DNA of 64,000 bases, taken from Brevibacillus laterosporus. GTDB taxonomy: Bacteria > Bacillota > Bacilli > Brevibacillales > Brevibacillaceae. The translations under genes were made by a program, and so were the position numbers. The first letter of the stretch is position 1, and the number at the start of each line of letters is the position of its first letter. The stretch is from NCBI GenBank assembly GCA_007833815.1, contig CP033464.1:5001001-5065000 (forward strand). Reading direction: 5' to 3'. Below the pieces are notes generated by a model, which saw only the letters and a list, made by a program, of their open reading frames with translations, ran no database searches and was not told the DNA's origin. This document shows positions 16,080 through 64,000 of this stretch, piece after piece.

Positions 16080-17504
16080 TTACTCTTTGTGTTTTTGTTC
16101 TTTATCTTTCTTCTTTTGCTCTTTCTTTTGCTCTTTCTCTTGATTTTTTTGTTCTTTTTGCTTTTCCTTATCATGTTGAGGCTTATCAGTTGACTTTAAT
16201 TTGGCATAATTTTTAACTTCTAAGTCTTGCTCATACAGTAAGGTTTTCCCATTATAAAAAGCAACATGTACACTTGTAACATTATGATTTGGACCCTTAA
16301 ACGGGAATTTTAAAACATACTCATCCCGATCTCCTTGCTCAATGATTACTTCTATCTTTTGTTCATGCTTCTTGCCATCTGGTGATGTCACAACCACCTT
16401 CAATGGCTCTAATGCCTGTTTTGGTAATTTTTCTAGTTGTTTTCTTAGGTTATCCCATTTACCTTTTAATCGAAGCATATTATCTTTTTTGTCAAAATAG
16501 GCATCACCCTGCCATTGCTTAAACATATCCCATACCCCATCGACATCCTTCCAGATATTTACTACCTGAATGGTTTGACGATCTATCAGCTTACCCTTAG
16601 CAAAGACTTCTACGCTTGCAGTAGAAGGGATATTATCGCCTAAAACAGGCATTTGCCATGAGAAGGAACCTACATAACTCCAGAATCGTTCGATTGGAAT
16701 CTCTTTGGTTGTTCCGTTATACGTAATTTTTACTTGGTCAGCAGAGCTTTTTACCTTCCCCTGAAATGAAACCTCTTTATTATGGGAATTATATTTTGCT
16801 AAGGAATAAACAAGCGCATTTTCCGTAAGTACAGGAGCTTCTTTAACTCGTAATTTGACACTTTCAACTAATTTATTTTGCTGGTAAGCCTGTATCGTTA
16901 GCATTTCCCCTGCGGATGCTTGCGGCATGCTGACACGGAATGTATGCTTTGAAGTGAATTGTAGCACTTCTACTTTATTTCCCTTTTCGGTAGAAATAAC
17001 CACCCGCGTGACACCCGGTTGAACTTTACCAGAAACCGTTGTCACGCCTTCTGTTGTTTCTTCCGAGTAGGAGTCAAATCCCTTCGCTAAAGCTCGTACA
17101 GATAGGTAAATATGATCAAAATCCTCTTTGAAAATACTCTGCCACTCATCTCCATATTCTTCAATAACATCCTGTAGCTTTTTTTCAAACGTCATGTTTG
17201 GGTCCTTTACCACCACATATACTCGATCTTTATAATCTTCTAAAAGTAACTGTAAAAACAGCTTATTTTCCTTTTCTAAATTCTCTATGTTATATAAATA
17301 ATTTTCACGGACTTGGCCTGCTGGCAACATATTTTTTGCATAGCTAGACATTGTAGGCTGTTTATCCGCAGAAGCAGTTGCTGTATCATGTATAGCATTG
17401 GAAGAATTTTTTTCATGGTCAGCATTTGCCATCAATGGTACGACAGCAAAAAGTATGCCGGCAGATGCCACACTTACAGATAAAATCGTTACTTTTTTGT
17501 TCAT
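16080..17504 (-). CDS. Secreted protein with Lys/Glu/Gln-rich tail
   Basis: A 474-residue exported protein: signal peptide at 1-28 (cleavage near ANA-D), a helical domain (about 55-135), then two or three beta-rich Ig-like modules (about 150-400), and a low-complexity tail from about 445 made almost only of K, E, Q and D. The tail is coded by an imperfect CTTTTTGCTCTTT-type DNA repeat. I do not recognise the family; it could be a wall- or matrix-associated protein. It is alone between terminators. Confidence 0.65.
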   Translation of the reverse strand: MNKKVTILSVSVASAGILFAVVPLMANADHEKNSSNAIHDTATASADKQPTMSSYAKNMLPAGQVRENYLYNIENLEKENKLFLQLLLEDYKDRVYVVVKDPNMTFEKKLQDVIEEYGDEWQSIFKEDFDHIYLSVRALAKGFDSYSEETTEGVTTVSGKVQPGVTRVVISTEKGNKVEVLQFTSKHTFRVSMPQASAGEMLTIQAYQQNKLVESVKLRVKEAPVLTENALVYSLAKYNSHNKEVSFQGKVKSSADQVKITYNGTTKEIPIERFWSYVGSFSWQMPVLGDNIPSTASVEVFAKGKLIDRQTIQVVNIWKDVDGVWDMFKQWQGDAYFDKKDNMLRLKGKWDNLRKQLEKLPKQALEPLKVVVTSPDGKKHEQKIEVIIEQGDRDEYVLKFPFKGPNHNVTSVHVAFYNGKTLLYEQDLEVKNYAKLKSTDKPQHDKEKQKEQKNQEKEQKKEQKKKDKEQKHKE

Positions 17505-32678: not shown

Positions 32679-34589
32679 TTATTCGTCTTCGTCCTCATCA
32701 TCGTCGTCATAAGAACTAAATAAGGATGTATACAGACCTTCCTCATCATCACGATCATCCAACCATACTAAACGATTGCCACCGATTGCGATCTCAGATG
32801 GTTCAGCATCACTATCAAATGGAGATCTGAAACGTTGCTTATCCATATCATACATGACATAGCGATCAAGATCGTCTCCGCCTTTTTCTACTTCAGTTTC
32901 ATAGAAAATGATATTTTTCGATACGATCGGCTTCTCTTGATCTCCTTCTTCTTCATATAGAAGATCAGTACGATTCATCTTGAATGAATACACGAAAATG
33001 TCTTTATCTTTTGTATCACTATTATAAGCAGACCAAGCTGCAAATCCATCGCCAAGACCGATACTGTCTGCATTTTCTACTTCTTCCTTCATGATACGTC
33101 CGCCATCTTCATAATCATAAATGACAACATCTTGATAATTATCGTCATCGCCATCAATCAAAGCTACAGCTTTATGATTAATAGCAACACTGCGAATGCC
33201 ACCTTTGGATTCATGCAGTTCAGATGTTTTATTCTTTTTTAAATTGGTTAGATTAGCGGTATTCGAGCGTTTGCTACCACTTACCCAAACAAGATGTTCA
33301 TTATAAATAGCATACAAACCTTCTACGACATCTGTTTTCTTAGTAGTGATCTTGGTAGATTCACCTGTTTCGATGTCGTAAGCCACTAATACATTATCAT
33401 CATTATCGTAGTAAACCACGTAAGAATCACTTACCACTGGATGCTCTGCTTCATGCTTTTCGGGAGAAACAGTAGTAGTTCTACGAGTTTTGGCATCATA
33501 CAGCATAACGCGAGATTCTTTTTTACCTTCCTTCAAGAAGGCAACATGGTTTTTGCTAGCTGCTGGAGAAGCTACATTTTTTAAATTTTCGCCCTTGCCA
33601 AGCACTTTGCTTTTCTCTTTTTTCGTGTCATATAATTTCAATGTCAAGTTGTTGCTTTTACCTGTAGCATATAGCACGTAGCGTCCACTCATCACAGGAG
33701 GCATTTTTTCATTGTAATCACTATTAACTTTATACGAATTATCTTTATTGGTATCTAGATAATACAATGAGCTACCCGTTCCATATAAAAGATAACGTCC
33801 GTTGAAATCAAACAGCTTTTCATCTCCTCTTTCGTGGGTCAACACTTTGGATTTACTGCTCTCTTGTTGCGTTTTTTCAATATTACCGCTTATTTGGTTC
33901 AAGAAAACGATATCATCGTCAACAATGATGGGATGAGCTGGTGTAGCCTTCCCCCAGTAAGTTTTATACTCTTTAGAAGATCCTAATATATTATGATACA
34001 ATTCAGATTTTCCGTTACGCTCATCTTGCCAAACCACTTGGTCATCATAAACGGAAGGATGGCTAGCTTTTCCGCTTGTGGATATGCGTTGTTCTTTGCT
34101 GTTGTTTACTTCAATCGCATAAATATTTGTTCCACCATCACGCTTGTCTTTCCAAACAACTACACCATCTTTAAAGCTTAGCTCTTCTGGATCAGTTACT
34201 CTTGCACTTTGGCTCGTAAGTTCACGCTCTTTATCCTTTTTCAGATCATAAGCATATAATTGGTAACGATTGTTTTCCACTTGAGCCCAAACTACCGTAT
34301 TTCCATCGATACGTGGTGCTACTTTCTTAGATTTATTGCTAGAAATTTTCTTTGATATTTTTTCATCATCCACATCATAAACCACAATGGAATAATTCTT
34401 CCCGGATTCCTCCACCCATACAGCATAATCCCCATCGAAATCCATACCATAAGGGGCAGCTGCAGTGTCACCATTCACTGTAATCTTTTCCTCATCATAA
34501 TTGGCTGCTAATACTGGGTTCACACTACTAACTAAAGTCGTTGCCATGGCAAAAACAGCTATCCATCGCTGAAAGCTCTTCTTCGTCAT
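32679..34589 (-). CDS. Secreted beta-propeller protein (TolB-like repeats) with acidic tail
   Basis: A 636-residue exported protein. A signal peptide (about 1-28, cleavage after VLA) is followed by many repeats of about 45-50 residues of the form 'P.v.g..vvW.d.r.g...iy.yd', for example HPSVYDDQVVWQDERNGKSE, as in TolB/WD40-like propellers. The last residues are almost only Asp and Glu. It probably acts outside the cell in binding or scaffolding. AGGAG precedes the ATG. No catalytic motif is visible. Confidence 0.72.
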   Translation of the reverse strand: MTKKSFQRWIAVFAMATTLVSSVNPVLAANYDEEKITVNGDTAAAPYGMDFDGDYAVWVEESGKNYSIVVYDVDDEKISKKISSNKSKKVAPRIDGNTVVWAQVENNRYQLYAYDLKKDKERELTSQSARVTDPEELSFKDGVVVWKDKRDGGTNIYAIEVNNSKEQRISTSGKASHPSVYDDQVVWQDERNGKSELYHNILGSSKEYKTYWGKATPAHPIIVDDDIVFLNQISGNIEKTQQESSKSKVLTHERGDEKLFDFNGRYLLYGTGSSLYYLDTNKDNSYKVNSDYNEKMPPVMSGRYVLYATGKSNNLTLKLYDTKKEKSKVLGKGENLKNVASPAASKNHVAFLKEGKKESRVMLYDAKTRRTTTVSPEKHEAEHPVVSDSYVVYYDNDDNVLVAYDIETGESTKITTKKTDVVEGLYAIYNEHLVWVSGSKRSNTANLTNLKKNKTSELHESKGGIRSVAINHKAVALIDGDDDNYQDVVIYDYEDGGRIMKEEVENADSIGLGDGFAAWSAYNSDTKDKDIFVYSFKMNRTDLLYEEEGDQEKPIVSKNIIFYETEVEKGGDDLDRYVMYDMDKQRFRSPFDSDAEPSEIAIGGNRLVWLDDRDDEEGLYTSLFSSYDDDDEDEDE

Positions 34590-34694: not shown

Positions 34695-34722
34695 CAAAAA
34701 ACACACTCATAATGAGCGTGTT
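34695..34722 (-). terminator. Terminator of the SR1-like RNA
   Basis: On the minus strand AACACGCTCAT pairs with ATGAGTGTGTT (one mismatch, G-T) and is followed by TTTTTGC. It ends the transcript about 50 bases after the SR1P stop. Confidence 0.8.
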
Positions 34723-34770
34723 CAATAAACGAAAGACTCAATATATTCAAAAATATATCTTCAAAATAGC

Positions 34771-34893
34771 CTATTCATGTTCATTATCATGCTGATGGCA
34801 CGGGCAATCGCATAAACCGTAAAGTGTTTTCACTTGTGGCGATTCTAAATGTTCAATGATGTCTCCGCATTTCTGACAAACGATTGTCGTCAT
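34771..34893 (-). CDS. sr1P: SR1P, GapA-binding peptide
   Basis: A 40-codon frame with GGGGGC five bases before its ATG. The peptide opens MTTIVCQKCGDIIEHLES and has VKTLYGLC and a Cys/His-rich end, matching SR1P (opening MGTIVCQTC..IEHFE, followed by VLYG.C). SR1P binds glyceraldehyde-3-phosphate dehydrogenase GapA and promotes RNase J1 action in B. subtilis. It is easily missed because of its size. Confidence 0.85.
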   Translation of the reverse strand: MTTIVCQKCGDIIEHLESPQVKTLYGLCDCPCHQHDNEHE

Positions 34894-34933
34894 GATAAGC
34901 CCCCTATAAAATAAGTCTACTTTCAAAAACATT

Positions 34934-34952
34934 TTAATTAGTATGTCACATT
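34934..34952 (-). promoter_or_regulatory. CcpN-type operator, downstream of promoter
   Basis: The minus-strand sequence TGTGACATACT fits the CcpN consensus TRTGHYATAYW at every position. The 19-bp block recurs exactly at 35074-35092. It lies about 20-35 bases into the transcript. Confidence 0.65.
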
Positions 34953-34974
34953 AATTAAAGTATGTGTTGTATCC

Positions 34975-35003
34975 ATCTTAATATGCTATACATTATCTGT
35001 CAA
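34975..35003 (-). promoter_or_regulatory. Sigma-A promoter of sr1
   Basis: On the minus strand the -35 box is TTGACA (34998-35003), the spacer 17 bp, and the -10 box TAAGAT (34975-34980). Confidence 0.75.
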
Positions 35004-35073
35004 TAGGCTACTGAAATCAACTGTAACATCCCTTTGTTTCTTATAATAACTACTTTGATAAGCTTATTACACA

Positions 35074-35092
35074 TTAATTAGTATGTCACATT
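35074..35092 (-). promoter_or_regulatory. CcpN-type operator, upstream copy
   Basis: An exact 19-bp repeat of the block at 34934-34952, again containing TGTGACATACT on the minus strand, about 80-100 bases upstream of the sr1 start. Two sites around the promoter would allow cooperative repression. Confidence 0.65.
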
Positions 35093-35144
35093 TAGGCGAC
35101 ACGAAATTTTAAGCTATTGTTTGAAATAGATCTACATCTTTTCA

Positions 35145-35184
35145 GAAAAAAAACAGCCTCTTCCATTCCAACGGAGGAGGCTGT
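35145..35184 (-). terminator. Terminator after DUF3055-like gene
   Basis: Stem ACAGCCTC-TTCC / GGAGGAGGCTGT with an 8-nt loop, followed on the minus strand by T8. Confidence 0.85.
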
Positions 35185-35214
35185 CATATTAAGGATTGTC
35201 TATTTACATCTAGG

Positions 35215-35511
35215 TTAGTATTGATCCTGAAATGGCATGGACGGTAAGTTATCACGAAAGAATTGAGAGAGCTCATTTGCTTGGGTCAAACATGACAATT
35301 TAAAGATTTCTTGCAGATGTTTTGGATTCAGTGTGTCTTCTGAACTTAATAACGTTGATTGTCCAGTCTGCATACATACCACCATTGGTTTTCCAAAAAA
35401 ACGGTGTGTGTACACTATCCCAAAATCATAGCGAGTCGTTTCGGTTGCAAAGCCCAGAAAACGAACCTTGGCCTCTTCGTTCACGTCATACAACAATTCC
35501 ATTACTTCCAT
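35215..35511 (-). CDS. DUF3055 / SAV0927-family protein
   Basis: A 98-residue soluble protein. The segment KVRFLGFATETTRYDFGIVY followed by THRFFGKPMVVCMQTGQS is the kind of conserved core seen in the small DUF3055 family of Bacillota, of unknown role. The start at 35511 lies near GAGGGT. The family is recalled from memory. Confidence 0.7.
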   Translation of the reverse strand: MEVMELLYDVNEEAKVRFLGFATETTRYDFGIVYTHRFFGKPMVVCMQTGQSTLLSSEDTLNPKHLQEIFKLSCLTQANELSQFFRDNLPSMPFQDQY

Positions 35512-42365: not shown

Positions 42366-42566
42366 TTCTACCATGGCAACTCATAAATAGCGCTCCACGA
42401 AAGGTTCACCTTTCATGACAAGACGTACGTTATTCACGTACACCCCAGCCGTAGATTGCGGGTCAGCAACGACTTCGGCGCATTGACCTTTTATCCTGTT
42501 CTCATCGTCCCGACGATGTAAAGCAAACAGGATGACTCATCCGCTGCGCACCTCTATTTTGGATTA
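42322..42566 (-). promoter_or_regulatory. Lysine riboswitch (L-box)
   Basis: The minus strand upstream of dapH has the L-box features AGAGGTGCGC at its start, a GGATGAGT-type turn, CGCCGAAGTC, and a five-way-junction set of stems (CATCGTCGGGACGATG, GTACGTGAATAACGTAC, GAAAGGTGAACCTTTC). A terminator hairpin follows. High lysine should stop transcription of the dapH operon. Confidence 0.85.
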
Positions 42567-60637: not shown

Positions 60638-60686
60638 CTTTTATTCGCTGAAAACTAGATAATGAAAGTCAGCATACAGGCAATGT

Positions 60687-63613
<2,927 letters not shown>

Positions 63614-63888
63614 ACGACGCACAGGATGTGCTAGTGTCTACGTTGCCACATGACGTGGCGTCTGTAGTAGACCATCCATGCGGTTTGCACTAATGTTGTT
63701 GCATGTCCTTACTAAAAGTAAGAACGTTTGCCTTGTATGCTTTCTACATTATCCAGTTTTCAAAGAACAATTGTCTACGCCAATTGTTGACCGCAAGCGG
63801 TCGGGGTTGAAGCTTTTATAGCAAACGTCGAGACGTTTACTACTTCATTGGCTATAGAATTAGTTGCAGTAACCTAATGAGGTTACCG
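63614..63888 (-). other. 5S-23S spacer with processing stem and anti-termination-like sequence
   Basis: A 275-base spacer without tRNA. It contains TTCTTTGAAAACTGGATAATG, the leader type usually found before 23S, and a small GTAACCT / AGGTTAC hairpin at 63869-63886 right after 5S. Confidence 0.7.
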
Positions 63889-64000
63889 GCCTGGCAACGT
63901 CCTACTCTCCCGGCTCGAATGAGCAAGTACCATTGGCGCTAGAGGGCTTAACGGTCGTGTTCGGAATGGGAACGTGTGTGACCCCTCTGCCATCATCACC
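63889..64000 (-). rRNA. rrf: 5S ribosomal RNA, 5' end beyond the window
   Basis: About 112 nt of a 5S gene: the complement reads GATGGCAGAGGGGTCACAC, CCATTCCGAACACG and finally GAGAGTAGGACGTTGCCAGG. It lies on the same strand as 23S and upstream of it. Confidence 0.93.

Follow-up and report, generated by a model that had tools for sequence, protein, structure and literature searches.

What is encoded in an apparently empty gap between two genes of Brevibacillus laterosporus, and how might it be controlled? The window analysed here is a stretch of 64,000 nucleotides (G000:C4:5001001-5065000) within a 5.76-Mb genome, and the gap in question carries, on the minus strand, a short reading frame for a peptide of the SR1P family. 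The literature on Bacillus subtilis describes SR1 as a small RNA made under gluconeogenic conditions and repressed 20-30 fold by the regulator CcpN (PMC8152036, PMC8501984, PMC7430163, PMC8464778). Directly seen in the DNA studied here are the SR1P frame, CcpN-type boxes around it, the conservation of both among relatives, a ccpN gene elsewhere in the genome and further boxes before pckA and a probable gapB. The locus is identified from its sequence as the SR1 orthologue (sr1) of the Brevibacillus laterosporus group, and it is very probably repressed by CcpN. The whole reading, in which SR1P would be the main product and CcpN would repress sr1 under glycolytic conditions via three boxes (U, P and D), is given a probability of about 90%. 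The features on which it depends are listed below in window positions; the bit scores of the boxes come from a matrix built from exact matches of the same SR1P loci that are compared later, and are therefore not independent for those loci.

34771-34893, minus strand: SR1P open reading frame, 40 codons plus stop (Pfam SR1P, PF13790).
34899-34904, minus strand: GGGGGC, probable ribosome-binding site by its sequence, shared with the three closest relatives (G029, G030 and G031; G and L numbers are our handles for genomes and loci).
34975-35003, minus strand: sigma-A-type promoter, TTGACA-17-TAAGAT, agreeing with 10 of 12 consensus positions.
34699-34723, minus strand: predicted intrinsic terminator of sr1, with an 11-pair stem, a loop of 3 and a T-rich tail.
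34968 to about 34693, minus strand: predicted SR1 RNA of about 276 nt, from the promoter and terminator positions.
35080-35090, minus strand: CcpN box U, TGTGACATACT, exact consensus, 23.5 bits, centre at about -118.
34982-34992, plus strand: CcpN box P in the promoter spacer, TATGCTATACA, exact consensus, 14.0 bits, centre at about -18.
34940-34950, minus strand: CcpN box D in the transcribed leader, TGTGACATACT, exact consensus, 23.7 bits, centre at about +23.

The protein read from the frame, MTTIVCQKCGDIIEHLESPQVKTLYGLCDCPCHQHDNEHE, matches PF13790 with 52.4 bits in a Pfam profile search (cut-off 26, E 6.1e-14), and the SR1P-like 40-codon frame behind GGGGGC claimed in the preliminary description is thereby borne out; the NCBIfam search gave no match for it. 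Compared with each of the three closest relatives, the frame shows 7-8 synonymous codon changes and no non-synonymous one, the proteins being identical, which argues that it is under selection. Among the 80 named loci listed, the closest is that of Brevibacillus laterosporus (L155), with 100% identity in SR1P. A CxxC...C...C pattern is found in 136 of the 139 SR1P proteins examined, and its cysteines suggest a metal-binding fold.

Of the 9 promoter-like sites in the scanned 1200 bp, where chance would give 4.8, this promoter is the best, and its sequence, CTATTGAC, is invariant across six aligned sequences. The transcription start at about 34968 was placed from the -10 box. Of terminator-like sites there are two, including the one at 34699-34723, where 0.6 would be expected. 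The promoter, downstream terminator and RNA of about 270 nt that had been proposed earlier are in agreement with these signals.

The consensus used for the boxes, TRTGHYATAYW, is the one given in the preliminary description and is not printed in the portions of the literature consulted. A 24-nt repeat is present at 34929-34952 and 35069-35092 (92% identical, with a spacing of 140 and 19 identical bases in a row), and both copies hold TGTGACATACT on the transcript strand; the 19-bp block described before, occurring twice and fitting the consensus each time, is thus real. The same description counted two CcpN boxes: both repeat boxes are indeed exact, and a third exact box, at 34982-34992, had been overlooked. 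In the window there are six exact matches to the consensus against 2.23 expected (2 of 100 shuffles reach six), three of which fall within 151 bp at sr1. At the place of box D, the three closest relatives score 22.1 (L051), 15.2 (L052) and 16.0 bits (L053).

Of the 40 genomes of the family, 39 have SR1P; in the sample taken from the class, it occurs in 146 of 399 genomes and 81 of 145 genera. The plasmid collection gave no SR1P match. The comparison of upstream regions covered 139 SR1P loci, 39 from the family and 100 others; the latter come from 97 of the 110 SR1P-positive genomes outside the family and were taken mostly by score order, leaving out 13 non-family genomes and second copies of some genomes, many of them low-scoring. 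SR1P positions at these loci are match coordinates, and start codons were set by a simple rule. All 39 family loci have an exact box in the 300 bp upstream, as do 76 of the 100 others (a figure that may overstate the class-wide rate, because many of the genomes and copies left out are low-scoring) and 115 of 139 overall. The corresponding means for shuffled upstream stretches are 0.35 for the family, 1.65 for the others and 2.9 overall, with a maximum of 8. Read backwards, the pattern occurs upstream of 4 of the 139 loci (one in the family, three outside it), and an exact box follows within 160 bp downstream of the stop in 2 of 139 (none in the family, two outside it), these downstream control stretches being shorter than the upstream ones (160 vs 300 bp). 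Of the 36 families covered, 27 have one or more loci with an exact box. With the matrix, the best site reaches at least 11 bits upstream in 127 of 139 loci, against 4 of 139 for the gene and downstream stretch together. In some genomes the SR1P gene is present in two or three separate copies (L124, L127 and L131 in G198; L135 and L140 in G212), and all five of these copies have an exact box upstream.

A CcpN-like protein at E <= 1e-25 is encoded by 144 of the 146 SR1P-positive genomes (all except G080 and G100) and by 195 of the 253 genomes lacking SR1P, a co-occurrence with a Fisher p of 1e-10 that ignores shared ancestry; the lowest-scoring CcpN-like proteins may be paralogues. The genome studied here does contain a CcpN-family gene, whose product, a protein of 210 amino acids (L011), scores 327 bits against the NCBIfam CcpN equivalog NF053704 (cut-off 260) and has HTH_11 and CBS domains. 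The gene sits between recO, upstream, and the gene of a phosphoenolpyruvate synthase/PPDK (PpsR-type) regulator, downstream, an arrangement shared with recO-ccpN-yqfL of B. subtilis.

Boxes also precede pckA (L001, L235), which was identified by TIGR00224, and a gene for a type I glyceraldehyde-3-phosphate dehydrogenase (L007). This gene is probably gapB rather than gapA, an assignment made because a box precedes it; a second such gene lies at L006. An extended pattern has nine matches in the whole genome: three at sr1, one at pckA, one at the probable gapB and four elsewhere, for which nothing is claimed. Two of these four (L236, L239) fall within genes, a third (L240) immediately precedes a 209-aa frame and the fourth is at L237. 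The L237 box (TTGTGACATACT, at about 1501) stands between an accA gene and a phosphofructokinase gene, on the other strand and some 230-290 bp ahead of the phosphofructokinase gene, possibly by chance. A 15-base pattern gives five matches, two of them elsewhere, in a coding frame (L003) and near the start of a 303-aa frame (L002). The idea, put forward before, that a gluconeogenic repressor circuit like that of B. subtilis is preserved in this distant genus is supported by the ccpN gene, by the boxes before pckA and gapB and by the 39/39 family loci.

Several results weigh against this reading. The exact box is missing in 24 of the 139 loci, several of which have near-matches; L120, L150 and L112 have weak sites only, and L087 has none above 5.5 bits. 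When the extended pattern is read backwards the genome gives seven matches, compared with nine forwards, so that single sites are no proof, and it is the clustering and conservation of the boxes that carry the case. With 14.0 bits, box P scores lowest of the three, and its match is exact only on the non-transcript strand. Besides, the Rfam scan of the window returned four matches at gathering scores and none at sr1, the fold of the whole SR1 RNA is unremarkable, being no stronger than that of shuffles (z -0.86), and for the duplex of SR1 with ahrC 81% of 300 shuffled SR1 sequences reach an energy as good or better.

The results on folding and pairing raise an alternative, to which we give slightly less than even odds: sr1 may serve here as a small mRNA for SR1P under CcpN, its RNA having no base-pairing targets. 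No excess of pairing with ahrC is seen (the duplex is also no better than that with 78 other stretches), the fold is ordinary, and G027 and G028 show much lower sequence similarity outside the frame and promoter. Nevertheless, the duplex test ignores internal structure and covers one target. As this test is crude and a review describes both SR1 functions as highly conserved among the tested homologues (PMC8464778), the ahrC result is no refutation. The term dual-function RNA, used in the preliminary description, is upheld for the SR1P frame; for the base-pairing half the duplex, no better than shuffles, gives no support. A different doubt concerns the boxes themselves, since short AT-rich repeats arise by chance and 2.23 chance matches to the consensus are expected per window. 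That the 24-nt repeat (34929, 35069) is a product of chance or of copying, or the operator of another regulator, is nevertheless very improbable in view of the exact box upstream of SR1P in every family locus and 76 of the 100 others, and of the boxes before pckA and gapB in the same genome. Box D lies inside the predicted transcript, at about +19 to +29, and could act at the RNA level, through leader structure or translation, instead of as a DNA operator; this is unlikely, given that D, flanks included, still conforms to the DNA-box consensus (23.7 bits) and that the predicted fold is weak overall.

If the boxes are DNA operators of CcpN, as preferred here, their arrangement becomes of interest. 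Spacings were counted between neighbouring centres of sites of at least 5.5 bits. Outside the family, a spacing of 31-33 bp occurs in 28 of 100 loci and one of 19-22 bp in 35. The family loci show 53-57 bp in 19 of 39, a single site in eight and a weak second site at 63 in two; other family spacings are 27 (L026), 44 (L036), 76 (L039), 77 (L025), 96 (L045) and 107 (G027). The distance between the upstream box and the spacer box is 100 bp in the window (U to P) and 97-98 bp in the three closest relatives. These spacings resemble multiples of about 10.7 bp, by a weak test: the clusters (about 32, 44, 55, 76, 97 and 107 bp, plus an outlier at 27) were hand-picked as upstream-to-spacer distances, and the distances left aside include 63 (L018, L029), 36, 62, 72-73, 99 and 112 bp and the pairs at 19-22 bp. 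All seven clusters give p = 0.06 (Rayleigh) and 0.03 (cosine), post hoc removal of the 27-bp outlier gives 0.003 and 0.001, respectively, and taking 17 distinct values as independent, which is doubtful, gives 0.002 and 0.0004. The window's spacing is 2-3 bp off that of its closest relatives, which weakens the phasing, and helical phasing of the boxes is a hint only. It is conceivable, and rather doubtful, that in the laterosporus group CcpN represses sr1 by looping across a three-site operator (U to D 140 bp, with P between), the upstream-to-spacer distance drifting across families in whole helical turns. If this were true, the operator spacings at sr1 would form a natural series in which to test whether CcpN binds cooperatively and to learn how CcpN units cooperate.

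Under the reading preferred here, sr1 would be transcribed as a free-standing sigma-A-type unit of about 276 nt and would yield SR1P, with its 40 residues, as the main product. The genome's own CcpN would repress it under glycolytic conditions through boxes P, U and D, and pckA and the probable gapB, carrying the same box, would be switched in parallel with it. SR1P would then appear while sugar is being made from other carbon sources and, by analogy with B. subtilis, would bind GapA and alter its partnership with RNase J1. We infer in this way transcription, CcpN binding, the response to glucose and the contact with GapA. The box before the peptide, in 39/39 family and 76/100 other loci, ties SR1P to CcpN well outside Bacillus and suggests an old, stable link between a gluconeogenic repressor and a GapA-binding peptide.

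The surroundings of sr1 contain the following features.

35152-35185, minus strand: probable terminator of the upstream gene, a hairpin followed by a U run (z -4.17).
35215-35511, minus strand: upstream neighbour, SAV0927-like protein (PF11256, 104 bits).
32679-34589, minus strand: downstream neighbour, beta-propeller repeat protein (TIGR04275, 112 bits).

The probable terminator at 35152-35185 would end the neighbouring gene and so make sr1 a separate unit; with its own predicted promoter and terminator, sr1 is predicted to be a free-standing one. In the fetched stretches, a relative of the SAV0927-like protein is found at 32 of 38 family loci and 53 of 100 others, whereas a relative of the beta-propeller protein (first 440 residues) is found at 34 of 38 family loci and none of the 100 others. 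By these counts the genomic setting is conserved on the SAV0927-like side, and the beta-propeller side is shared with family loci only. A gene located just before sr1 in L017, labelled hydrolase-type from a reading of its sequence, has a relative in the fetched stretch of 33 of 38 family loci and none in that of the three closest relatives, L039, L054 and the window; its absence may accompany wider box spacing. Related to these neighbours, the locus L161 (NZ_CP064048.1), recorded under the name Anoxybacillus sediminis, carries an SR1P of Brevibacillus type together with SAV0927-like and beta-propeller neighbours, and its coordinates agree with those of the family member G003 (L027); the record may be misnamed. 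The Rfam matches in the window, all on the minus strand, are a Lysine riboswitch (42380-42564), 23S rRNA (60685-63613), Bacillaceae-1 RNA (63618-63683) and 5S rRNA (63889-64000).

No cre site for CcpA was found near sr1 at up to one mismatch, a limit that does not exclude weaker sites; the only such cre-like matches in the window are at 17031 and 33902-33915. A cre-like motif, AANCGNWNNCW, does occur within 90 bp before SR1P in 48 of the 100 non-family loci and in 1 of the 39 family loci, and the backward pattern in 1/100 and 0/39. Examples of this leader motif are L060, L057 and L114, where it begins 25-81 bp ahead of the start codon. Perhaps a cre in the leader, or else a conserved RNA element, has escaped notice in SR1P loci.

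SR1 homologues are a published kind: reviews give 23 in 2012 (PMC8152036, PMC8464778), 39 in another account (PMC8501984) and 139 in 2021, the 2012 set being at an "identical genomic location" (PMC8152036). That 139 loci were examined here as well is a coincidence. The abstract of the 2012 survey reportedly names Brevibacillus and places all homologues under CcpN control. Since such homologues were already published, the surprise at this locus is low, and it appears to be of the same kind as those of other Bacillales. In the literature search no paper was found that contains both SR1P and Brevibacillus, the sole paper with CcpN and Brevibacillus being concerned with the insulin receptor, and a three-box layout with a distant upstream box was not found described in the available portions of the SR1 and CcpN literature. 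In Geobacillus thermoglucosidasius, a CcpN-type motif precedes gapB and pckA, and deletion of ccpN raised both transcripts (PMC7936320); boxes before the same two genes are seen here, sr1 not being treated in the available part of that paper.

The closest comparison is with B. subtilis, where SR1 is described as a 205-nt RNA encoding a protein of 39 amino acids, repressed by CcpN and CcpA, which pairs with the ahrC and kinA mRNAs and whose peptide binds GapA and enhances RNase J1 activity (PMC8152036, PMC8501984, PMC7430163, PMC8464778). Its promoter has two CcpN sites, one directly upstream of the -35 box and one in the spacer, and a CcpA site about 260 bp upstream (PMC8464778). The RNA predicted here is longer, at about 276 nt, has an extra box in its leader and, within one mismatch, has no cre-like site nearer than 33902-33915. 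Its upstream box is centred 100 bp from the spacer box and not directly upstream of the -35 box. Box P, located in the promoter spacer, therefore matches a known B. subtilis CcpN site, and by analogy box U is the second known site moved outward, the leader box D being an addition. As far as these sources describe the B. subtilis system, the locus resembles it in its SR1P frame, sigma-A-type promoter, spacer and upstream CcpN boxes and terminator, in a genome that likewise has ccpN, pckA and a probable gapB.
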